Shown: positions 7,082-41,003 of the stretch, in pieces
Numbering within the stretch: the first letter of the stretch is position 1
How the letters are laid out: the number at the start of each line of letters is the position of its first letter
Origin: Chitinophagales bacterium
Lineage (GTDB): Bacteria > Bacteroidota > Bacteroidia > Chitinophagales > Chitinophagaceae
Length of the DNA stretch: 47,132 bases
Reading direction: 5' to 3'
NCBI GenBank assembly: GCA_017303395.1
Contig: JAFLBN010000023.1
Span: forward strand, 1-47,132
Notes under the pieces: generated by a model
Databases searched by the model: none
What the model was told of the DNA's origin: nothing
The model's input: the letters and a program-made list of their open reading frames with translations, nothing else
Made by a program: the position numbers and the translations under genes

Positions 7082-9232
7082 TTATAGATTCTCTACGTTG
7101 TATTTAATCTTAGCCGATTTTTTCAGTGTTTCCTGTACACTACCCATTACGGTATTACGCAATTGCATCATCATCATCATTTTCTCCTGAAAATCTTGTT
7201 CAGGAGCTGCTGCTACAGGAACATTATATTTATTAATCAGGCTTATGAAAAATACTGCGTCCTGTCCTTTAATAGCAGGTGATACAGTGTTTGGTTGCAA
7301 TTTGCCTGAGAATACATAACCCAGCAATCTAGGTTCGTAACCCAGTTTGTTTATGAATGGTTGTGATGCGTTAAACGAGTCTGAACGTTGCAGTGCTTGA
7401 TTTGTACTTGTAGAAAGTGATTGCAAAGAGCTTACAGATTTGTATTGATCCATCAGCATTTTTGCTTTTTTCTCATTTCTTACAGCCATTTCAATAGCTG
7501 GCCTGTTGTTCATATCTAACTTCATGAGGCCCGGTTCTTGTTCACCGCTCATTTTAGCAACTATGTAACGACCATTGAGGCTGAATACAGCAGATACATC
7601 ACCTTTTTTTGCAGCATACAACCAACGCACCAATTCACGGCTGTTGCCCAGACCATTTACCATGAAATCTGTTTCTTTTATACCCTCAGCTACACGCTTA
7701 TTGATATTTTCTTTTTTCACCGCTTCATCAAATGCTTTTTCAGAATTGTATTTACCTGCAAATTCTGATGCTTTTGCATAAGCGGCATTGTTTGTATTCT
7801 GACCTGGTTCCAGCATACGGCTGATAGTAGCCAGTTTCAGTGCCGGTTGAACACCTTTTTGGTCAAGTATTTCTATATAGTGGTACCCTGCATAACCGCT
7901 ATTACTAACTTTTACAATTTTCTTTTCGCCTGTTTTACCATCGAAAATGAAGTCTGCAAATTCTTTAGATAGTTGTTCTTTCTGTTGCAGTGTAAAAGTG
8001 TATTCTCCATTAGTTTGTTTGCTTCCTTCATCCTGAGTGTATTTAGCAACCATCTCACTGAAGTTTGCGCCACCTTTGATAGCAAGCTCCACGCTGTCAA
8101 TACGTTTTTTCACTACACTATCCGCAGCAACAGGTTGGCCACCTTCTTCTGTTTTTATGAGAATGTGGCGGCATTTTACAGAATCCGGCAGTGTTTTTCT
8201 ATCAACTACTTTTGTCAATTTATAAGAGTTGTTCTCGTAGTATGGTCCGAACACAGCTCCAGTAGACAATTTCAGAATTGAATCTGCATAAGGAGAGAAG
8301 AAAGAACCTTTATTTACATAAGATGGATTGTATTGTTCATCAGAATTTCTGTTTACAATACTTTCTACATCTGTAGTGTTAGCAAATTCGTTTTTTATAT
8401 TATTAAGAACACCTAAAGCGTTTGCAGTATCTTCCGAACTTGGTGTCAGGTCGAATGCTACATAGTCTATGCTTCTTGATTTATCAGCATTGTAGAATCT
8501 CTTTTCATTTTTCTTCATGTATTCTACAAGCTCTTCTTCTTTAACCGGAACTTTATCATCAGGAATAGTAGCGTAAGGTATCCTTACGAAATCGATACCT
8601 ACATATTCAGATTTTTCTTTCCTCGATTTTTCCAAGAGGTATTTAGGAACATAGATTGCTTTTGCTGTCAGCATTGTGTATTTCTTCAATGCATTGTTCT
8701 GCAGCACATAATTTTTAATAGTCTGCCATTCTTCCAGCAATTTTCCTGTAGGATCTACCTGATTAGCTTGTTGTTCAAATGCTTTGATACGTTGCGGATC
8801 AAACATTTTCGTTTCCGGATTCTGGAACCACTGATACTGCCTAACTATAGGATCAGCGTTCATACCATATATCAGTTCTTTTTCTTCCTCAGGTGTTGTC
8901 TGTATTCCCAGTTTTTCGCATTCTGCTTTTACCAATTCAGCATTAACTAAATCTGCAAGTGCTTGCTGGTTTATCTGTGCTCTTGTTGCATCATCCAAAG
9001 GACGACCTTTCTGACCATAAGAGTAAAGTGTTTCGTAGTCTTTTACTTTTTGGCTATATGCTTTTACATCTATAGCTTCACCATTTACTTTAGCAACGCT
9101 ATTATCTCTACCAAAAAGAGAACCTAATGGGCCATTTGATGCATCCATTAATATAAAACCTACCAGCGAAAGGGCTATTACAAAACCAGCAACTTTAGCG
9201 TACTTATTCCTAATTTTCTGAATTACAGACAT
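7082..9232 (-). CDS. ppiD: PpiD-like periplasmic peptidyl-prolyl isomerase/chaperone
   Basis: 716 residues, the usual length of Bacteroidota PpiD. One N-terminal transmembrane helix (VAGFVIALSLVGFILMDA, residues about 14-31) anchors it with the rest in the periplasm. A SurA_N-type chaperone domain follows (KVNGEAIDVKAYSQKV to about residue 200), then a parvulin-type rotamase domain near 350-460 (CRHILIKTEEGG, ANFSEMVAKYTQDEGSK, GYHYIEILD). The C-terminal 250 residues are helical and family-specific. It assists folding of exported envelope proteins, likely important for an organism with many secreted barrels. It is transcribed away from nadA across a 526-bp gap that may hold the replication origin. 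Codons lean to T-ending forms, as in strongly expressed neighbours. Confidence 0.9.
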   Translation of the reverse strand: MSVIQKIRNKYAKVAGFVIALSLVGFILMDASNGPLGSLFGRDNSVAKVNGEAIDVKAYSQKVKDYETLYSYGQKGRPLDDATRAQINQQALADLVNAELVKAECEKLGIQTTPEEEKELIYGMNADPIVRQYQWFQNPETKMFDPQRIKAFEQQANQVDPTGKLLEEWQTIKNYVLQNNALKKYTMLTAKAIYVPKYLLEKSRKEKSEYVGIDFVRIPYATIPDDKVPVKEEELVEYMKKNEKRFYNADKSRSIDYVAFDLTPSSEDTANALGVLNNIKNEFANTTDVESIVNRNSDEQYNPSYVNKGSFFSPYADSILKLSTGAVFGPYYENNSYKLTKVVDRKTLPDSVKCRHILIKTEEGGQPVAADSVVKKRIDSVELAIKGGANFSEMVAKYTQDEGSKQTNGEYTFTLQQKEQLSKEFADFIFDGKTGEKKIVKVSNSGYAGYHYIEILDQKGVQPALKLATISRMLEPGQNTNNAAYAKASEFAGKYNSEKAFDEAVKKENINKRVAEGIKETDFMVNGLGNSRELVRWLYAAKKGDVSAVFSLNGRYIVAKMSGEQEPGLMKLDMNNRPAIEMAVRNEKKAKMLMDQYKSVSSLQSLSTSTNQALQRSDSFNASQPFINKLGYEPRLLGYVFSGKLQPNTVSPAIKGQDAVFFISLINKYNVPVAAAPEQDFQEKMMMMMQLRNTVMGSVQETLKKSAKIKYNVENL

Positions 9233-9239
9233 ATCACTA

Positions 9240-9758
9240 TTATGTTTATTACAGGGACGGCAAATTTATACGAAAAATTGAGATAATAAAGCCGTTTTAC
9301 CTTAATAATACAGATTTATCAATTATATTAATAATATAGTTAATTCAACTAACCAGTCTATTAACTGTATGTTATCCAATTCTTATTAAAACTTTAATGT
9401 TATTAGACTGGTGTGTTAATTACTGTGGATAGCGAGATTATAACACCCCGTGTAAATGGAATAAACCTGATGATGTGGATAAGCGAATTTTTTTATTCTA
9501 AGAAATCAGTAGGTTATAATCACCATTCTCATAAATTCACAACAAGTTATTTATCAACGCATTCTGTAATCCACATTTCCCATTTTTTTGTGGGTATCCT
9601 TATTTAACAGGGCTTTAGGCTGTTAATAACTAATTGCTATATAGTGGACGAACTAAATTCTTTTACTTTGCAAATAGAATAAGTGATTATTATCCCCAAA
9701 TCCACAGTCCTTATTATAATAGTCCTTTTTTTTAAAAAATCTTTTTATTAATACTACT
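9240..9758. other. candidate chromosomal origin (oriC): DnaA-box-like cluster in AT-rich divergent gap
   Basis: This 526-bp gap between divergent ppiD and nadA has no credible gene. Measured against the box TTATCCACA it holds one exact copy (minus strand, 9474-9482), single-mismatch copies at 9424-9432 (minus), 9567-9575 and 9690-9698, and weaker ones at 9372-9380 and 9551-9559. Very AT-rich stretches lie at 9301-9350 (7 G/C in 50) and 9721-9757, either of which could be an unwinding element. An inverted repeat of 13 bp with one mismatch (9352-9364 and 9400-9412) frames one box. Context fits: divergent flanks, parS-like sites at 13.1 and 14.3 kb, mnmG nearby, and mostly plus-strand genes to the right. 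A promoter of nadA must also be here. No functional proof. Confidence 0.5.
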
Positions 9759-10769
9759 ATGAATGTGCAAATCGAAGAAGCTGAAAAAAATTTGACGAAA
9801 ATTGGATTTCTGGATCTGGAAATTGACCCATCGCTGGATTTGTTTGCAGAGATTGAAAAGCTAAAGAAGGAAAAGAATGCTGTAATACTTGCTCACTATT
9901 ATCAGGAGCCGGATATACAGGATATAGCTGATTATATAGGTGACAGTTTGGGCCTTGCACAGAATGCTGAAAAGACGGATGCAGATATTATAGTATTTGC
10001 AGGCGTACACTTTATGGCAGAAACTGCAAAGATTCTGAATCCTGATAAAAAGGTATTGTTACCTGATCTGAATGCTGGTTGTTCTTTGAGTGACAGTTGT
10101 CCGCCCGCACTCTTCAAGCAATTCAAGGACAAACATCCCGACCATATTGTTATATCATATATTAATTGCTCTGCAGGTATTAAGGCATTGAGTGATATCA
10201 TATGCACATCTTCAAATGCAAAGCAAATTGTTGATAGTTTGCCAAAAGAGCAAAAGATAATATTCGCTCCTGATAAGAATTTAGGTGCATATATCAATAA
10301 GACAAGTGGTAGAGAAATGGTGTTATGGAATGGCGCTTGTATGGTGCATGAAATATTTTCATTGGAAAAAATTACACGCCTCAAGGAAAGACATCCTAAT
10401 GCTAAAATGATTGCACATCCTGAGTGCGAAGAGGCAGTATTAAAGATTGCTGATTATATAGGTTCAACTACACAATTATTAAAATATACACAAGACTCAG
10501 GTTTCAATGAATTTATCGTAGCCACTGAAGCGGGTATATTACACCAAATGCAAATAGCTTCTCCCGATAAAACTTTTATACCTGCACCACCAGATAATGC
10601 ATGCGCATGTAACGATTGCCCGCACATGAAGCTCAATACTTTAGAAAAATTGTATCTGTGTCTTAAGTATGAGCAACCTGAAATACTTATGAATGAGGAA
10701 CTTAGGCTGGCTGCAAAGAAACCTATAGATAAAATGTTGCAGCTTAGCAGGAGTTTTGGCCTGATATAA
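9759..10769 (+). CDS. nadA: quinolinate synthase A
   Basis: 336 residues. Condenses iminoaspartate with dihydroxyacetone phosphate to quinolinate in de novo NAD synthesis, using an oxygen-sensitive [4Fe-4S] cluster. The expected cluster ligands are present: C108 ([12 protein letters not shown]), C194 ([11 protein letters not shown]) and one of the C-terminal cysteines in [18 protein letters not shown] (C282-C287). The active-site stretch [20 protein letters not shown] and MIAHPECE are also intact. nadB and nadC are not adjacent. The ATG at 9759 has poly-T/A DNA upstream rather than a strong ribosome-binding site. A near-consensus -7 box (TTACTTTG, 9663-9670) lies 88 nt upstream. Confidence 0.96.
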
Positions 10770-13086: not shown

Positions 13087-13112
13087 AAAAGGGTTCCACG
13101 TGGAACCCTTTT
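13087..13112 (-). terminator. 26-bp perfect palindrome: terminator of the 13.1-kb gene, with a parS-like core
   Basis: Bases 13087-13099 are the exact reverse complement of 13100-13112. On the minus strand the hairpin follows the envelope-protein gene by 21 nt and runs into TTTTTATTAG, as a terminator should. The central 16 bases (13092-13107, GGTTCCACGTGGAACC) also fit the ParB site pattern NGTTNCACGTGNAACN exactly. The DNA could serve both purposes. With no unpaired loop bases in the perfect form, the RNA hairpin would have to open its central CACGTG. Confidence 0.7.
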
Positions 13113-13906: not shown

Positions 13907-13914
13907 TACCTTTG
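13907..13914 (+). promoter_or_regulatory. -7 box of mnmG
   Basis: TACCTTTG matches TAnnTTTG exactly and ends 6 nt before the ATG at 13921. Transcription starting a few bases after the box would give a leaderless or nearly leaderless mRNA. Confidence 0.5.
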
Positions 13915-13920
13915 CTGCCT

Positions 13921-15789
13921 ATGTTTAAGGAGTATGATGTAATAGTAGTAGGAGCAGGACATGCAGGTTGTGAGGCTGCCGCTGCTGCTGCTAATATGGG
14001 TTCTAAGGTCCTTTTGATAACTATGAACATGCAGACTATAGCCCAGATGAGCTGTAATCCTGCTATGGGTGGTATCGCAAAGGGACAGATAGTAAGGGAG
14101 ATAGATGCTTTGGGTGGCTATAGTGGTATTGTGAGTGACAAGAGCATGATTCAGTTCCGTATGCTGAACAAGTCTAAAGGACCTGGTATGTGGAGTCCAC
14201 GTACGCAGAATGACCGTATGCTTTTTGCACAGACCTGGAGGGATATGTTAGAGGCTACTCCAAACGTAGATTTCTGGCAGGATATGGTGAAGGAACTAAT
14301 TGTTTCACGTGGAACAGTGTGTGGTGTTGTGACAGGAATGGGCATAGAAATAAAATCTAAGGCTGTAGTCCTTACAAACGGAACCTTCCTGAATGGTGTT
14401 ATCCATATAGGTGAAAAGCAGTTTGGAGGAGGTAGAATGGGCGAAAAAGGGGCTACAGGCATTACAGAACAGCTTGTTTCCTATGGTTTTGAGAGTGATA
14501 GGCTTAAAACTGGTACTCCGCCGCGTATAGATGGACGTAGCCTTGACTATAGCAAGATGGAAATACAGGATGGAGATGAGGAAATAGTAGGCTTCTCTTA
14601 CCTGCCAATAGAAAGAATTAAGCCGGAACAACAAAGGGGCTGCTGGGTTACCTACACAAGTCCGGAGGTTCACGATATCCTGAAGACAGGTTTTGAGAAA
14701 TCTCCGATGTTCCAGGGAAGAATACAAGGTACCGGGCCACGTTATTGCCCAAGTATTGAGGACAAAGTGACTCGCTTTGCTGAAAGGGAACGCCATCAAT
14801 TGTTTGTGGAACCTGAAGGTTGGAATACGGTAGAGATTTATGTTAATGGTTTCAGTACTTCTTTGTCGGAAGATGTGCAGTATAAAGCACTACAAATGGT
14901 GCCCGGGTTTGAGAATTGTAAGTTCTTCCGTCCGGGATATGCCATAGAATATGATTATTTCCCGCCTACACAGCTCAAATTCACCCTCGAAACCAAGCTT
15001 ATCAATAATCTTTTCTTTGCAGGACAGATAAATGGTACTACAGGATATGAAGAAGCTGCGTGTCAGGGTTTGATGGCAGGCATCAATGCACACAGGAAAG
15101 TAAAGGAACTGGAACCTGTTGTATTGCAGCGTAGTGACGCCTATATAGGTGTGCTGATAGATGACCTGATAAATAAAGGTACAGACGAGCCTTATAGGAT
15201 GTTTACCAGCAGGGCAGAATTCCGTACACTCCTCAGACAAGACAATGCAGACCTACGTCTTACAGAACTTGGGCATAATATTGGTCTGGCAACAGATGAA
15301 AGATTGGCATTAATGAATGCTAAGAAAGAGAAAGTAGATCGTATCAAAACTCTATTGGCTGAATATCCTGTAGAACCTGCAGATGCTAACCCGTTTCTGG
15401 AATCAATAGATAGTGCTACACTGAATGAACGTAGCCGTGCTTTGAAAATCCTGCTTCGCCCGGGCATTAACCTGAAAGATATGCAGGCCGCTTTGCCAGG
15501 CTTGAAGGAAGCACTGAATGAAGATGATACTCTTGCTTTGGAACAGGCAGAGATACAAATCAAGTACGATGTGTATATAGAGAAGGAAAAGGAACTGGTT
15601 AAGAAGATGGCAACATTGGAGGATCTTGTAATACCTGATACATTTAATTATGATAAGCTGTCTGCACTATCAACAGAGGCACGGCAGAAACTGAAGAAGA
15701 TAAAACCACAAACACTTGGGCAGGCCAGTAGGATAAGCGGTGTTAACCCAAGCGATGTTCAGATACTAATGGTATACATGGGGCGTTAA
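13921..15789 (+). CDS. mnmG: tRNA uridine-5-carboxymethylaminomethyl modification enzyme MnmG (GidA)
   Basis: 622 residues. With MnmE it installs the carboxymethylaminomethyl group at U34 of certain tRNAs in the cytoplasm. The FAD-binding motif VIVVGAGHAGCEAAAAAANMG starts at residue about 7; further signatures are MSCNPAMGGIAKG, QFGGGRMGEKGATG, RLKTGTPPRIDGRS and CPSIEDKVTRFAERERHQ. The C-terminal helical domain that contacts MnmE is complete. The ATG at 13921 was chosen over an upstream in-frame TTG at 13912, which lies inside the -7 box. The gene contains a parS-like site at 14301-14316. mnmG often lies near oriC in other bacteria. A hairpin separates it from recX. Confidence 0.97.
   Translation: MFKEYDVIVVGAGHAGCEAAAAAANMGSKVLLITMNMQTIAQMSCNPAMGGIAKGQIVREIDALGGYSGIVSDKSMIQFRMLNKSKGPGMWSPRTQNDRMLFAQTWRDMLEATPNVDFWQDMVKELIVSRGTVCGVVTGMGIEIKSKAVVLTNGTFLNGVIHIGEKQFGGGRMGEKGATGITEQLVSYGFESDRLKTGTPPRIDGRSLDYSKMEIQDGDEEIVGFSYLPIERIKPEQQRGCWVTYTSPEVHDILKTGFEKSPMFQGRIQGTGPRYCPSIEDKVTRFAERERHQLFVEPEGWNTVEIYVNGFSTSLSEDVQYKALQMVPGFENCKFFRPGYAIEYDYFPPTQLKFTLETKLINNLFFAGQINGTTGYEEAACQGLMAGINAHRKVKELEPVVLQRSDAYIGVLIDDLINKGTDEPYRMFTSRAEFRTLLRQDNADLRLTELGHNIGLATDERLALMNAKKEKVDRIKTLLAEYPVEPADANPFLESIDSATLNERSRALKILLRPGINLKDMQAALPGLKEALNEDDTLALEQAEIQIKYDVYIEKEKELVKKMATLEDLVIPDTFNYDKLSALSTEARQKLKKIKPQTLGQASRISGVNPSDVQILMVYMGR
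14301..14316. other. parS-like ParB binding site inside mnmG
   Basis: TGTTTCACGTGGAACA fits the widely shared parS pattern TGTTNCACGTGNAACA at every fixed position. It encodes part of the peptide IVSRGT of MnmG. It lies 1.2 kb from a second such core at 13092-13107. Confidence 0.65.
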
Positions 15790-33570: not shown

Positions 33571-33660
33571 AACTTTTCCACATTTATACACAAAAAATAA
33601 CAGTTTATCCACAATTTATATAAATTTGTGACAAGATTATATGTAACGCTTATTCACAGT
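33571..33660. other. array of DnaA-type boxes next to AT-rich DNA (second oriC candidate or DnaA-regulated promoter)
   Basis: Four boxes in the same direction: TTTTCCACA (33574-33582, one mismatch), TTATACACA (33584-33592), TTATCCACA (33605-33613) and TTATTCACA (33650-33658); the last three fit TTATNCACA exactly. The first three are spaced 10 and 21 nt, so they face the same side of the helix. The preceding 80 bases (33491-33570) have about 11 G/C. The whole gap, 33471-33716, is only 246 bp and also has to contain the promoter of the giant gene; a TAnnTTTG box (TAAATTTG) lies at 33621-33628 among the boxes. It may be an origin, or a DnaA-controlled promoter. Confidence 0.45.
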
Positions 33661-33716: not shown

Positions 33717-36700
33717 ATGAATAAATACTTGTACGCATTTTTGTGTGTATGCTTTTCTATCCTGTCTGCTAACGTAGCCTATTCGCAGGTTCCGGTGGCA
33801 AACTTTAGTGCAAGCACTACATCGGGATGTTCACCCATCGTATCAAACTTTACAGACCTTAGTACCAATACCCCAACAAGCTGGTACTGGGATCTTGGCA
33901 ATGGTAGTACCTCTACCCTTCAAAATCCGTCAACAACATATATCAATCCCGGAACATATACCGTTACACTGATAGCCACAAATAGCAATGGTGCTGATAC
34001 ACAGGTATTTACAAATTACATAACAGTAGCACCTTCGCCTACTGTTGCGTTTACAGCAGACTCTACCCCATCTTGCCAGGTGCCGCGTACTATAAGTTTT
34101 ACGAACAATTCTATAGCTGGTGGTTCGGGTACAACAACATATCTATGGGACTTTGGTGATGGTAATACATCTTCATCTGCAAATCCTACCCACACATACA
34201 CTGCTTTTGGCAATTATACGGTTACACTACTAGTAACAAATGGTAACAGCTGTTCTAAATCGCTGATAAAAAGTAACTATATAAAAATATTACCAAAGCC
34301 AACAGCCTCATTTACAGCTACAGGCAATAATTCTTGTACGTCCCCTGTAACAACAACTTTTACAAATACATCAACCGGGGCAGTTGCTTACGATTGGAGT
34401 TTTGGTGATGGTGGTACATCTACCGCTACCAACCCAACTCATATATATACTGCAAATGGTTCGTACACCGTTAGGCTGATTGCAACAAATGCTGCAGGCT
34501 GTAAAGACACATTTACGAGTAGCTCTTTTGTAAATATTGGAGCACCGAATGCGTCATTCAATGTAAGTTCACTTTCTGTATGTACAGGTAAAACGGTAAA
34601 CTTTACCAATACATCTACCCCAGCGGGTTATACAAGTGCATGGAGTTTTGGTACAGGAGGTACATCTACCGCTACCAGCCCTACATATACATACAGCAGC
34701 GCAGGCACATACACTGCAACACTTATTGTTTCAAGATCTGGCTGTAGTGATACAGATTCAAAAACTATCACTGTAAATCAAAATCCTAGTGTCAACTTCA
34801 TAGCGTCACCTACAGAAGCTTGTGCTGCACCGCTTACAACCAACTTTACTAATACATCAGCAAACGCAGTATCATACTTGTGGCGTTTTGGTGATGGTAA
34901 TACGTCTACCGCAGCCAATCCTTCAAATACTTACAATGCACTTGGCAGCTACACTGTAAAACTGATAGCTACTAGTGCATCAGGTTGTACAGACTCTTTT
35001 ACAAGAACAACCTATGTAAAGGTACAGCAACCGACAGCTACAATAAGCATCGGTTCTTATTCTGGCTGTGCACCTGTAACAATTTCATTTACTGCAAATA
35101 TTACTACCGTTATACCAGTAAGTAATTACACGTGGGATTTTGGTGATGGTTCAGGAACGGTATCTTGTTCTACATGTAATACGCAATCGCATACATACAC
35201 ATCATCTGGTACCTATACAGTAACACTTACTTATACTACTGGTAGTTGTACATTAACAAAAACAACAACAGTAACAATTGCAACGAAACCTTCTGCTGCT
35301 TTTAGTGCCACACCAACTGCATTGTGTCCCGGAAGTCCTGTAACATTCAGCAATTCTTCTACAGGTGCTACAACCTATACATGGCTATATGGAAATGGTG
35401 GCACATCTACAGCTACTAACCCTGTGTACAACGGATATACAAGAGGTACATATACTGTAACGCTTATAGCAAATAATAATGGTTGCAGAGATACTGCTAT
35501 CAGAACTAATTATGTAACAGTGCATCCGCCCGAGGCAAATTTTGGGCTTGCAACTTCTTGTACCAACAGGTCTACAATTACATTGACAGACAGTTCTGTT
35601 GGTGCCAATACATATAGTTGGGATTTTGGAGACGGAGGTACATCCACTCAGGTAGGCGGTACTTTAACACACACCTATTCTACCCCGGGTACAAAAACAG
35701 TAACACTGAATGTATATAACACAACATTTGGTTGTTCAAGTACGTTGACAAGAACAGTAAATATTCAGCCATTGTCGCCTGCATTTACTGTTACGGATAC
35801 TACCCTTTGTAAAGGCGAGACTACAACTTTTGCCGTTAATACACTTGGTACAGGCCATCTGTATACATGGTATTTTGGTAACAATACTTCATTTACCACA
35901 GCAGCGGAATCTTTGTATTATTCTTACCCTGCAGGTGGTACTTACAGCCCAAAACTGGTAGTAACTGATGCGTATGGTTGTAAAGATTCTTTAACCAAAG
36001 TAAACCATGTACGCGTAGGTAGCGCCAATGTAGATTTTTCTGGTACACCACTTATAGGTTGTTTACCATTTACCGCAACATTTACCGATCTCAGTACACC
36101 TAACGGCGGGTTCGCTATCACAAACCGTGTATGGGATTTTGTGTACGGCGGCTTGCAGCCAACTACCAACACCACTATTTCGTATACTTATATTTATGGT
36201 GGTACATGGCCTGTAAAATTGGTAGTAACTGATGCTAACGGCTGTAAAGATTCACTAATAAAGAATAACTATGTTACCGCAAGCAAACCGGTAGCACAGT
36301 TTCAAACACCTGATACAAATATATGTGTGGGTCAGACGGTGCAGATGTATAACTACTCAGGTGGTGCAAGCTTCACATGTATGTGGTATTGGGGAGACGG
36401 AGGAACATCTACACAATTAACTCCTACACACATATACACAGTACCTGGTATTTACACTGTGAAATTGGTAGTGACAGATATGTATGGCTGTAAAGACTCC
36501 ATGACAAAAACAGCATACATCAAGATAAACAGTCCGGCGATAGGATTTACAATGAGTGATACGGTGGCAAATTGTCCACCACTTCTGGTAAACTTTACCA
36601 ATACTTCTACTGGTGTATCAAGCTATGCATGGAACTTTGGCAATGGTGGCCAATCCTCTCTTGCAAACCCTACTGCATTATATACCTACCCGGGAGTGTA

Positions 36701-39700
36701 TAATATAAAACTGATTGGCACTACGAATGCGGGCTGTAAAGACTCTCTTACCAAGCAAGTAACTATATACGGACCTACAGGTTCGTTTACCTATACACCG
36801 ATAGCAGGTTGTAATCCTGTAACGGTAAACTTCTCTGCAACTACTACCAATGCCACATCGCTGATATGGGATATGAGTAATGGTTTTACACAGACAACAA
36901 CAGGCAATACTTACAGCTATACATATACACAAACAGGCCAGTATTTACCAAAATTAATATTGAGTGACGGTGCTTCATGTCTTGTACCGATATTTGGTAC
37001 AGACACTGTAAAGGTAGATAAGATGGACGCTGATTTCAGCTTCTCGCCAAATGCAATTTGTAACGCAGGTACTGTACAGTTTACAGATACGGTATTATAT
37101 ACAATAAGTAATGTTGTAAGCCGCAGTTGGGACTTTGGTGATGGTGGCACAAGTACCGTACACAATCCTTCTCATGCATATACAGCACCGGGCAACTATA
37201 ATGTAAGATTGATTGTAACCAATGCACAAGGTTGTAAAGACACTATAATAAAAACCGTGATAATACATTATCCGCCAAATGTAACGGTATCAGGAGCATC
37301 TTCAATTTGTCAGGGAGCAACAACAGGTGTTGTACTTACAGCAATTGGTGCATCTACTTATTCATGGGCTCCACCTACAGGGTTGTCTTGTACAAACTGT
37401 GCAGTTACCACTGCATTGCCTGCAAGCACAACAACATACATAGTTACGGGTACTGATGTAAATGGTTGTACTGATACTACACATGTAACTGTGAATGTAA
37501 ACAACAGACCTAATGTAAATGCATCTTCAAATAAAGCTGCGGTATGTATAGGCTCCAACGCAACACTTACAGGTAGTGGTGCAACAAGCTATGTATGGAC
37601 CCCTGCAAGTACATTGTCGTGCAGTACGTGTGTAAGCCCTGTAGCTACCCCAACTGCTACAACTACATATATTGTAACAGGTACCGATGCTAACGGTTGT
37701 ACTGATACTGGTGTAGTGACAATAAATGTAAATCCATTGCCCACAGTAAGTGCTGGTAGCAATATAGCCATATGTAATGGTTCGTCAACAACGCTTACAG
37801 GTAGTGGTGCAAGTACCTATGTATGGACCCCTGCAAGTACATTGTCGTGCAGTACATGTGTAAGTCCTGTAGCTACCCCAACTATTACAACCACATATAC
37901 CGTAACAGGTACCGATGCTAATGGTTGTGTGAATAGCGCAAATGTGACAGTTAGTGTAAACGCCCTGCCAACAGTAAGTGCTGGTAGCAACGTAGCCATA
38001 TGTAATGGTTCATCAACAACGCTTATCGGTAGTGGTGCAAGTGCCTATGTTTGGACCCCTGCAAGTACATTGTCGTGCAGTACATGTGTGAGCCCTGTGG
38101 CTACCCCAACAACAACAACAACTTATACAGTAACGGGTACGGATGCTAACGGATGTTCAAATACAGCTAACGTAACGGTAACTGTAAATAACTTACCAAA
38201 CGTTAATGCCATATCTAATAAATCGGCTGTTTGTATTGGCTCTACAGCTACACTTACAGCAAATGGTGCAACAAGTTATGTTTGGACACCGACTGGTAGT
38301 TTGTCGTGCAGCACATGTACAAACCCAATTGCAACACCAACTACTGCAACTACGTATACCGTAACAGGTACCGATGCCAACGGTTGTGTGAACACAGCGA
38401 ATGTAACAGTAAATGTAAATGCTTTGCCTGTGGTAAGTGGTGGTAGTAACGTAACCATATGTAATGGTTCATCTACAACATTGAATGCAACGGGAGCATC
38501 CACCTATGTTTGGACCCCTGCAAGTACATTATCGTGCAGTACATGTGTGAGTACTGTAGCAACACCAATAACAACTACCACATATACCGTAACGGGTACG
38601 GATGCTAATGGTTGTGTGAATACATCCACTGTAACGGTAAATGTAAACCCATTGCCAAATGTAAGTGCTGGTAGCAATGTGGCAATATGTGCAGGGGCAT
38701 CAACTACATTAGGTGCAAGTGGTGCGACAAGTTATGTGTGGACGCCTGCAAGTACATTATCGTGCAGTACATGTGTGAGCCCTGTAGCTTCACCTGCAAG
38801 TACTACTACATATACATTAAAGGGTACGGATGGCAATGGATGCTCTAAAACTGCAACCGTTACAGTAACCGTGAATCCGTTACCAAATGTAACAGCAACA
38901 GGTAGCAATGTGGTTTGTGCTGGCTCTTCAACAACATTAACTGTTAACGGTGCGACAAGTTATATATGGACGCCATCTGGTTCATTATCTTGTAGTACAT
39001 GTGTAAGCCCAGTGGCTACTCCATCTTCACCTACTACATACATAGTAACAGGTACTGATGCCAATGGTTGTATTGATACAGGCATGATTACTATAAACAT
39101 CAATACAAAACCTGATGTGGATGCAGGTATAGATAGAACGATATGTTTTGGTGCATCAACCAATTTATCTGCAACTGGTGCGGTAAACTATCAGTGGTCA
39201 CCATCAACAGGTTTATCATGTTCTGCGTGTGCCAATCCTTTAGCAACACCGGCCACTACCACATTATACAGAGTAGTAGGTGTCGCCGCTAATGGCTGTA
39301 GTGATACGGATTTTGTAAATGTAACTGTGAATCCTTTGCCAAACGTTGCCGTAACAGGTATAACAACAATATGTGCAGGCTCTAATACTATATTAGTGGC
39401 AAGTGGTGCCACATCTTATGTGTGGACACCAGCAGGCTCATTGTCTTGCTCAACGTGTAGCAATCCTGTAGCATCACCGGCTGCTACAACATCTTATGTG
39501 GTGACAGGTACAGATGCCAATGGATGTACGGACACAGGAAAAATAACAATAACTGTGAATCCGCTACCTGTATTACAAACCACAGGTTCGGGAACAATAT
39601 GTGAGGGTACTACAAGACAACTGAATGTAACCGGTGCAGCTAACTATAATTGGTCGCCTGCTACCAATCTTTCTTGTATTGCTTGTAGCAATCCTGTAGC

Positions 39701-41003
39701 CTCGCCTACCACTACCACTACTTACACAGTTACTGGTACAACAAATGGCTGTTCTATTTCGGCTACTGTTACTGTAAATGTTTTGCCTATGCCCGTTCTG
39801 TATGTTTCATCAGACCAGACTATTTGTGAGGGTGGAAAAGTTAACCTAAGTGTAGGAGGTGCAGCCACTTATGTTTGGACTCCTTCATCAGGACTATCTT
39901 GCACTACTTGCGTAGATCCGGAAGCATCACCTGCTAGCACTACTACATATTTGGTGACAGGCACAAGTTCCGATGGGTGCTCTAACACGGCAAGTGTTAA
40001 GGTAACAGTAAACCCTAAGCCTAAAGTAGATGCCGGTGAAGATATAGTGATATGTGAGGGTTCTTCTGCACAATTGCAGGTAACTGGCACAGATACCTAC
40101 ACGTGGACTCCTTCAGCTACACTTTCATGTTCTACATGTAGTAACCCTGTAGCGAAGCCGTTGACAAATACGACGTATACAGTAATAGGCCAAGATAATA
40201 TTGGCTGTAGTGATTCGGATAAAGTGACTGTTTCAATAATAGAGCGTGGTCCGGTTACTTATGGGCCTGATGCAGAATTCTGTATCGGAGGCTCTGCAGA
40301 GTTGTATGCTACGGGAGGATCTTCTTATACTTGGATACCTTCCGACGGTTTGAATAATCACCAGCAAGCCAAGGTAAAAGCTGCACCAAACAATACGACA
40401 AAATATACCGTTATAGTAAAACAAGGAGATTGTTTCGTGGATACAGGATACATAAATGTGACGGTACATCCATTACCAGTTGTAGAGCTTGGCCCTGATG
40501 TGACAATTGGTGGCGGTAATAGTACGCAACTCAGGGCTGCAGGAGATAATATAGTAATATATAGTTGGACTCCTTATTACCAACTTAGTTGCGATGATTG
40601 TTCAAGCCCTGTAGCATCGCCAAGACGTACTACAGAGTACAAGGTAAATGTGACAGATAGGTATGGCTGCGAAGGTTCTGATAATATTACTGTACGAGTA
40701 CTGTGTGAAAACGGACAAATATTTATACCAAACACATTCACACCGAACGGTGATGGTATAAACGATATGTTCTTCCCACAGGGCAAAGGTTTGGATTATG
40801 TGAAGAGCTTCCGTGTGTACAGCCGCTGGGGCGAACTTGTATTCTCAAGAGATGATATGAAGATAAATGACCCTGCTTCAGGTTGGGATGGTACTTTCAA
40901 AAATACACCACTGAAACCGGATGTATTTGTGTACGTTATCAGAGCCTATTGCGAGTCTGGTGAACTGATAGAGTTGAAAGGTGATATTTCGTTGGTCAGA
41001 TAA
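33717..41003 (+). CDS. giant cell-surface PKD-repeat protein with T9SS type B (CHU_C) sorting domain
   Basis: 2428 residues. Residues 1-24 are a signal peptide (cleavage near AYSQ). Residues about 25-1187 hold 14 PKD-type repeats, each with a WDFGDG-like core, an NPTHTY strand and a final G-x-Y-T-V strand. Residues about 1188-2325 hold 15 repeats of close to 76 residues with YVWTPASTLSCSTC and YTVTGTDANGC cores. Residues about 2330-2428 (FIPNTFTPNGDGINDMFFP, RVYSRWGELVFS, GWDGTFKN, PDVFVYVIRA) are the gliding-motility-associated type B sorting domain, so export by type IX secretion and surface attachment are expected. No enzyme domain is visible, so an adhesin or filament role is likely, possibly in gliding. 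The PorP/SprF gene 28 nt downstream is the expected partner. Confidence 0.9.
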   Translation: MNKYLYAFLCVCFSILSANVAYSQVPVANFSASTTSGCSPIVSNFTDLSTNTPTSWYWDLGNGSTSTLQNPSTTYINPGTYTVTLIATNSNGADTQVFTNYITVAPSPTVAFTADSTPSCQVPRTISFTNNSIAGGSGTTTYLWDFGDGNTSSSANPTHTYTAFGNYTVTLLVTNGNSCSKSLIKSNYIKILPKPTASFTATGNNSCTSPVTTTFTNTSTGAVAYDWSFGDGGTSTATNPTHIYTANGSYTVRLIATNAAGCKDTFTSSSFVNIGAPNASFNVSSLSVCTGKTVNFTNTSTPAGYTSAWSFGTGGTSTATSPTYTYSSAGTYTATLIVSRSGCSDTDSKTITVNQNPSVNFIASPTEACAAPLTTNFTNTSANAVSYLWRFGDGNTSTAANPSNTYNALGSYTVKLIATSASGCTDSFTRTTYVKVQQPTATISIGSYSGCAPVTISFTANITTVIPVSNYTWDFGDGSGTVSCSTCNTQSHTYTSSGTYTVTLTYTTGSCTLTKTTTVTIATKPSAAFSATPTALCPGSPVTFSNSSTGATTYTWLYGNGGTSTATNPVYNGYTRGTYTVTLIANNNGCRDTAIRTNYVTVHPPEANFGLATSCTNRSTITLTDSSVGANTYSWDFGDGGTSTQVGGTLTHTYSTPGTKTVTLNVYNTTFGCSSTLTRTVNIQPLSPAFTVTDTTLCKGETTTFAVNTLGTGHLYTWYFGNNTSFTTAAESLYYSYPAGGTYSPKLVVTDAYGCKDSLTKVNHVRVGSANVDFSGTPLIGCLPFTATFTDLSTPNGGFAITNRVWDFVYGGLQPTTNTTISYTYIYGGTWPVKLVVTDANGCKDSLIKNNYVTASKPVAQFQTPDTNICVGQTVQMYNYSGGASFTCMWYWGDGGTSTQLTPTHIYTVPGIYTVKLVVTDMYGCKDSMTKTAYIKINSPAIGFTMSDTVANCPPLLVNFTNTSTGVSSYAWNFGNGGQSSLANPTALYTYPGVYNIKLIGTTNAGCKDSLTKQVTIYGPTGSFTYTPIAGCNPVTVNFSATTTNATSLIWDMSNGFTQTTTGNTYSYTYTQTGQYLPKLILSDGASCLVPIFGTDTVKVDKMDADFSFSPNAICNAGTVQFTDTVLYTISNVVSRSWDFGDGGTSTVHNPSHAYTAPGNYNVRLIVTNAQGCKDTIIKTVIIHYPPNVTVSGASSICQGATTGVVLTAIGASTYSWAPPTGLSCTNCAVTTALPASTTTYIVTGTDVNGCTDTTHVTVNVNNRPNVNASSNKAAVCIGSNATLTGSGATSYVWTPASTLSCSTCVSPVATPTATTTYIVTGTDANGCTDTGVVTINVNPLPTVSAGSNIAICNGSSTTLTGSGASTYVWTPASTLSCSTCVSPVATPTITTTYTVTGTDANGCVNSANVTVSVNALPTVSAGSNVAICNGSSTTLIGSGASAYVWTPASTLSCSTCVSPVATPTTTTTYTVTGTDANGCSNTANVTVTVNNLPNVNAISNKSAVCIGSTATLTANGATSYVWTPTGSLSCSTCTNPIATPTTATTYTVTGTDANGCVNTANVTVNVNALPVVSGGSNVTICNGSSTTLNATGASTYVWTPASTLSCSTCVSTVATPITTTTYTVTGTDANGCVNTSTVTVNVNPLPNVSAGSNVAICAGASTTLGASGATSYVWTPASTLSCSTCVSPVASPASTTTYTLKGTDGNGCSKTATVTVTVNPLPNVTATGSNVVCAGSSTTLTVNGATSYIWTPSGSLSCSTCVSPVATPSSPTTYIVTGTDANGCIDTGMITININTKPDVDAGIDRTICFGASTNLSATGAVNYQWSPSTGLSCSACANPLATPATTTLYRVVGVAANGCSDTDFVNVTVNPLPNVAVTGITTICAGSNTILVASGATSYVWTPAGSLSCSTCSNPVASPAATTSYVVTGTDANGCTDTGKITITVNPLPVLQTTGSGTICEGTTRQLNVTGAANYNWSPATNLSCIACSNPVASPTTTTTYTVTGTTNGCSISATVTVNVLPMPVLYVSSDQTICEGGKVNLSVGGAATYVWTPSSGLSCTTCVDPEASPASTTTYLVTGTSSDGCSNTASVKVTVNPKPKVDAGEDIVICEGSSAQLQVTGTDTYTWTPSATLSCSTCSNPVAKPLTNTTYTVIGQDNIGCSDSDKVTVSIIERGPVTYGPDAEFCIGGSAELYATGGSSYTWIPSDGLNNHQQAKVKAAPNNTTKYTVIVKQGDCFVDTGYINVTVHPLPVVELGPDVTIGGGNSTQLRAAGDNIVIYSWTPYYQLSCDDCSSPVASPRRTTEYKVNVTDRYGCEGSDNITVRVLCENGQIFIPNTFTPNGDGINDMFFPQGKGLDYVKSFRVYSRWGELVFSRDDMKINDPASGWDGTFKNTPLKPDVFVYVIRAYCESGELIELKGDISLVR
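37281..40690 (+). repeat. 15-copy tandem coding repeat with 228-bp period
   Basis: The tryptophan-threonine-proline core of each copy can be placed at 37373, 37604, 37832, 38060, 38291, 38519, 38747, 38975, 39203, 39431, 39659, 39884, 40112, 40340 and 40574 (third base of the proline codon). Ten of the fourteen steps are exactly 228 bp; the others are 225, 231, 231 and 234, all multiples of three. Copies at 37604, 37832, 38060, 38519 and 38747 are nearly identical at DNA level over their cores, while outer copies have diverged. Each copy has a CxxC in LSCSTC plus a Cys in DANGC and usually one more in ICNGS. Confidence 0.92.

Follow-up and report, generated by a model that had tools for sequence, protein, structure and literature searches.

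The 526-bp gap between ppiD and nadA at positions 9233–9758 is proposed as the chromosomal replication origin (oriC) of this Chitinophagales bacterium of the family Chitinophagaceae, a candidate that is very likely its standard origin. The gap lies in the window, by which we mean the whole stretch of 47,132 nucleotides that was analysed; the window is an entire contig (C16) of a genome of 3.76 Mb in 44 contigs, and dnaA of the same genome is found on a separate contig (C2). Bacteroidota origins are often not beside dnaA. An earlier note on this DNA had read the gap as a candidate replication origin, and that reading is now supported by a short module with the layout of a known origin-opening element, by the conservation of DnaA boxes in relatives, by linkage to parS and by a GC skew switch in some relatives.

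The gap is gene-free and divergent. Its left neighbour, a gene for a ppiD-like peptidyl-prolyl isomerase (7082–9232), lies on the minus strand and its right neighbour, nadA for quinolinate synthase (9759–10769), on the plus strand. Both genes point away from the gap, as the earlier note had described, and mnmG (gidA; 13912–15789, plus strand), which the note had placed 4 kb off, starts 4.2 kb away. The arrangement recurs in relatives: a gap of 473–970 bp separates ppiD from nadA in 45 of the 110 nadA loci examined, other families included, and the window's gap aligns at 91% identity with that of G002 and at 70% with that of G004. The two very AT-rich stretches pointed out before are both real, but they are not the most AT-rich of the window. 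The one at 9709–9758, beside the DnaA boxes, is 84% AT, and some other places in the window equal or exceed it; by AT content alone the gap does not stand out. Its part from 9726 to 9758, adjoining the module and reaching the nadA start, is our proposed unwinding stretch; the second AT-rich stretch lies at about 9295–9344. An inverted repeat around a box had also been claimed. A repeat with a box in each arm is present (9473–9488 and 9561–9576), though it is imperfect (81%), whereas the other imperfect repeat (84%; 9347–9365 and 9399–9417) contains no box.

Four DnaA boxes at no more than one mismatch occur in the gap, distributed over both strands, in line with the one exact and several single-mismatch boxes first noticed there. 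The single exact copy of TTATCCACA lies at 9474–9482 on the minus strand; boxes with one mismatch to it lie at 9424–9432 (minus strand), at 9567–9575 (plus strand) and in the module described below. Dinucleotide shuffles of the gap contain 0.20 such boxes on average, and none of 100 reaches four. Boxes exceed chance at the level of at most 1 in 100 shuffles in 39 of 45 ppiD–nadA gaps, the window's own copy included, and do not in the other six; this test was limited to gaps of up to 1200 bp, which placed L009, L014 and L067 (gaps of 2.9–3.0 kb) outside it. The conservation of boxes in relatives, which the earlier note had named as a check, was thus confirmed both by these counts and by the retention of the module across the family. 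Box counting as the sole proof was rejected. The whole window holds 22 boxes against 15.7 expected, which is not unusual (7 of 100 shuffles reach 22), the genome holds 33 exact boxes and thereby fewer than the 58 of a reversed control, and a second cluster lies near 33.6 kb. Since this other spot in the window has an equal number of boxes, counts alone do not prove an origin.

More specific is a 37-bp module on the plus strand at 9690–9726, which by its sequence has the layout of the published ‘basal unwinding system’ (BUS). In the BUS, tandem DnaA boxes, of which the upstream one is nearer to the consensus, are followed by a spacer of 10–13 bp and then by DnaA-trios (PMC8287927). The window's module likewise begins with two boxes in tandem, the first of which is followed by a spacer of 12 bp, and continues with DnaA-trios and AT-rich DNA. 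Its upstream box, TTATCCCCA (9690–9698, plus strand), has one mismatch to TTATCCACA. The weak downstream box, AAATCCACA (9698–9706, plus strand), was assigned by eye and has two mismatches; its CACA core is kept in the genus and at most family sites. The trio tract TTATTATAATAG (9711–9722, plus strand) is degenerate relative to the family consensus TAATAGTAATAG, which has three or more trios. Read by eye, it gives the loose NAN trios TAT-TAT-AAT from 9712, while a strict TAA/TAG run is only two long (9717–9722). Judged by eye, the window therefore agrees with the BUS rule of three or more loose NAN trios no further than 16 bp from a DnaA box. Alignment of 13 genomes of the window's genus revealed a conserved block by nadA composed of TCCCCA, the box, a TA-rich tract and a T/A run, and the wider-family consensus at the same place reads TTATCCACA AATTCACACCCC TAATAGTAATAGG.

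Compared with known systems, the module resembles the BUS of Bacillus subtilis incC in its tandem boxes with the better one upstream, its 12-bp spacer, its trinucleotide tract on one strand and the AT-rich DNA beyond (PMC6669920, PMC8287927). It differs in lying just upstream of nadA and not at dnaA and in its degenerate trio tract. Boxes in a gene-free gap, mnmG (gidA) nearby and a skew switch in some relatives are shared with the oriCs predicted by DoriC and Ori-Finder. The E. coli oriC lies between gidA (mnmG) and mioC (PMC10225481). In the window mnmG is also near the gap, but it is 4.2 kb off with an internal parS-like site, and the direct neighbours are ppiD and nadA.

Matrix searches singled out the module. 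With a matrix of 36 family sites, position 9690 scores 32.9 bits and the next position of the window 2.8; of 45 loci from the family but not the genus, nine had given no site with the regular expression and were left out of training. Because the named metagenome loci used for training lack a stated genus, we tested the window again using 12 sites whose genera are known and differ from the window's. Here 9690 reaches 32.2 bits, against 12.0 for the runner-up among 94,192 window positions and 17.3 for the best of 200 mononucleotide-shuffled gaps. In G004, of the same genus, the module site is the best of 749 kb sampled, yet it reaches only 8.5 bits, with the next at 5.5. We also built a sequence-only model, R1, from the matrix sites other than L002, 35 in all. 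A single site is what would be looked for in an oriC, and under strict filters R1 returned a single match at E<=0.1 in the window's own genome, at 9690, albeit with an E value of only 0.0098. In the family sample of 195 genomes, R1 finds the module in 166 at E<=0.01, once in 160 of them and twice in the other six, and misses it in 29; some of these genomes supplied training sites and match by construction.

Within the genus, the model match lies directly upstream of nadA in 12 of 14 NadA-bearing genomes, the exceptions being G013, where the site was found by a sequence pattern only, and G003, where the match lies at the end of another contig. The matches listed comprise 149 genomes with the module, 149 with NadA and 118 with both. 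Of these 118, all but G015, G138, G210 and G136 carry the module on the nadA strand, 33–215 bp upstream of where nadA matches, which makes 114 genomes. Outside the family, three of 23 genomes of the order match at E<=0.01 (G058, G038 and G044). Two of these matches, G058:C6:169168 (E 6e-5) and G038:C25:4982 (E 0.0044), belong to another family of the order. A search upstream of ppiD covered 24 genomes, with a partial match in G049 left out; in the stretches of the other 23 (22 outside the family and G015), some of them shortened by contig ends, no strict module was found. In these stretches, and by the strict pattern, a ppiD-linked origin common beyond the family was thus not found.

A parS site near the origin is common in bacteria, though not universal, and the candidate origin has a parS-like site nearby. 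A parS-like site with one mismatch to TGTTTCACGTGAAACA lies inside mnmG at 14301–14316, 4.5 kb from the gap, and is the only one in the own genome at no more than one mismatch. Of the two parS-like sites reported earlier at 3.3 and 4.5 kb, this second one is good, while the first, a weaker palindrome at 13092–13107, has four mismatches. A parS match at no more than one mismatch occurs in only 87 of 195 family genomes. Pairing about one listed parS row per cluster with the module, we found the two 3–20 kb apart in 22 of 31 genomes with both, among the matches listed; in the remaining nine they are unlinked, eight times on different contigs and once 761 kb apart. Around parS in nine order-level relatives (L284–L292), mnmG overlaps the site or is no more than about 1.5 kb from it in eight, and was not found in the ninth, G036; by the strict pattern, the origin module was not found there in any of the nine. 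Of the 11 parS-side stretches searched, from G015 and the nine order-level relatives, only that of G015 holds it. Weak module-like sites of 11.6 and 11.7 bits at L286:14566 and L287:12449, 1–1.6 kb from parS in two genomes of another family, are possibly divergent origins.

The GC skew of the window changes from negative to positive around 8–10 kb, which gene direction alone could yield. Skew, a check proposed in the earlier note, was measured in five relatives, the own genome being in 44 contigs. The outcome differs between genomes. It is clear in two near-complete relatives, G032 and G028, sampled in 20 stretches of 20 kb each. All ten stretches that precede the site in G032 have negative skew, and 8 of the 10 that follow it have positive skew; in G028 all ten on the one side are negative and all ten on the other positive. 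The interval in which the switch fits best encloses the site in either genome, with its ends about 10–11 kb off and neighbouring intervals near-tied. Two genomes are compatible with a switch at the gap, with the best fit elsewhere. In G059 (Chitinophaga sp. E66, CP079103), the skew stays negative through the eight stretches between -1.9 Mb and -12 kb, is positive in the one at +12 kb and mixed in later ones; the best fit lies 393–781 kb from the site and the gap comes second. G018 shows weak skew, and the gap ranks third among nearly tied intervals. G004, sampled in 40 stretches, is unclear, with a best fit 143–161 kb away and the gap outside its five listed intervals. Balancing GC3 skew by gene strand gave noisy values of little further use. 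The distance from dnaA to the site ranges from 0.41 Mb (G028) to 1.94 Mb (G032) among G004, G018, G028 and G032, and is about 0.78 Mb in G059. The findings as a whole indicate, as far as sequence can tell, that the origin of Chitinophagaceae is not at dnaA. In G059 the dnaA domain matches fall into two pieces (G059:C1:108782-109266), one with an internal TAG, reflecting either a sequencing error or a damaged gene.

Boxes and module could instead belong to a promoter or leader through which DnaA controls nadA or ppiD. The nearly constant place of the module just upstream of nadA, described above, agrees with this, as does the promoter-like motif TAnnTTTG, a Bacteroidota promoter element: it occurs within 92 bp before the boxes at 25 of the 50 family loci, where 4.2 would be expected, and 18 of its 28 occurrences lie 27–28 bp before the boxes. 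The plus strand of the window's own gap, however, has no exact TAnnTTTG, and the module is kept where the neighbouring genes are not. G031 has no NadA match, yet it retains the order ppiD–module–parS–mnmG with a module matrix score of 40.1. In G015, nadA (446 kb), ppiD (108 kb) and parS (67.6 kb) are all on one contig; the module, sought beside parS, was found 4.2 kb from it and thus about 383 kb from nadA and about 45 kb from ppiD, and a search of the 38 kb taken around parS and module yielded no NadA or PpiD. A NadA homologue is absent at E<=0.001 in 17 of 195 family genomes, and among the matches listed nine of these 17 carry the module. As it persists without nadA in G031 and far from both genes in G015, the module is not merely a control part of nadA or ppiD, and a nadA promoter as the main explanation was rejected on these two genomes. 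Its proximity to parS in the 22 genomes above argues in the same direction, and so does its position at the skew switch in two relatives. In one of the two, G032, which has 12 boxes at no more than one mismatch in the 800 bp upstream of nadA, ppiD is not adjacent and was not found in the stretches taken beside nadA. We therefore regard a purely regulatory role as very improbable; the sequences rather indicate that the origin outlives the loss or exchange of its neighbour genes.

Even less credible is the alternative that replication starts at another place, either by dnaA or at the four DnaA-like boxes clustered at 33574–33658, with the gap serving as a DnaA-titrating or regulatory cluster. 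Such a reading would suit the skew of G004 and G059, which is not best at the gap, and the second cluster matches the gap in box number. The matrix, however, gives that cluster a score of 0.0, it has no trio module, and in G004 all its boxes but the exact one have changed. The window genome's own dnaA locus (L001, 3486 bp) contains a single box at no more than one mismatch, no module and a best matrix score of -5.1, and the large dnaA distances in the five relatives likewise speak against an origin beside that gene. The region at 33574–33658 is 94% identical in G002 (277 columns) and 75% in G004 (252 columns), and precedes an ORF of 2428 aa (33717–41003) with nine PKD-domain matches in its first 828 residues, perhaps a large surface protein.

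With the ppiD–nadA gap as the origin, we infer the following course, its opening steps by analogy with the known BUS. DnaA would occupy both the tandem pair at 9690–9706 and the boxes scattered elsewhere in the gap, and would then spread, as a growing filament, along the trio tract (9711–9722) on one of the strands. The filament would melt the AT-rich DNA at 9726–9758, where the helicase would be loaded, and two forks would depart in opposite directions from the opened DNA. ParB on the nearby parS would organise the new origins. A further proposal, which we consider unlikely, places the opening machinery in the transcribed leader of nadA. Transcription of nadA would then run through the melting element. 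In a few relatives (L087:2496, L091:980, L089:1507 and L109:1814) an opposite-facing box-trio tract starts within or at the first nadA codons, so the AT-rich core may open from both sides. If true, this would link origin firing to NAD synthesis and represent an unusual two-sided BUS.

No publication on the oriC of Chitinophaga or Chitinophagaceae was found in a search that had most subscription papers and DoriC outside its reach. The conserved signature around the tandem boxes and trios very probably marks the origin in most sampled Chitinophagaceae, away from dnaA. As a sequence-only and mostly single-copy marker, the module would be usable in draft genomes of the family and may serve growth-rate estimates that need the position of the origin.
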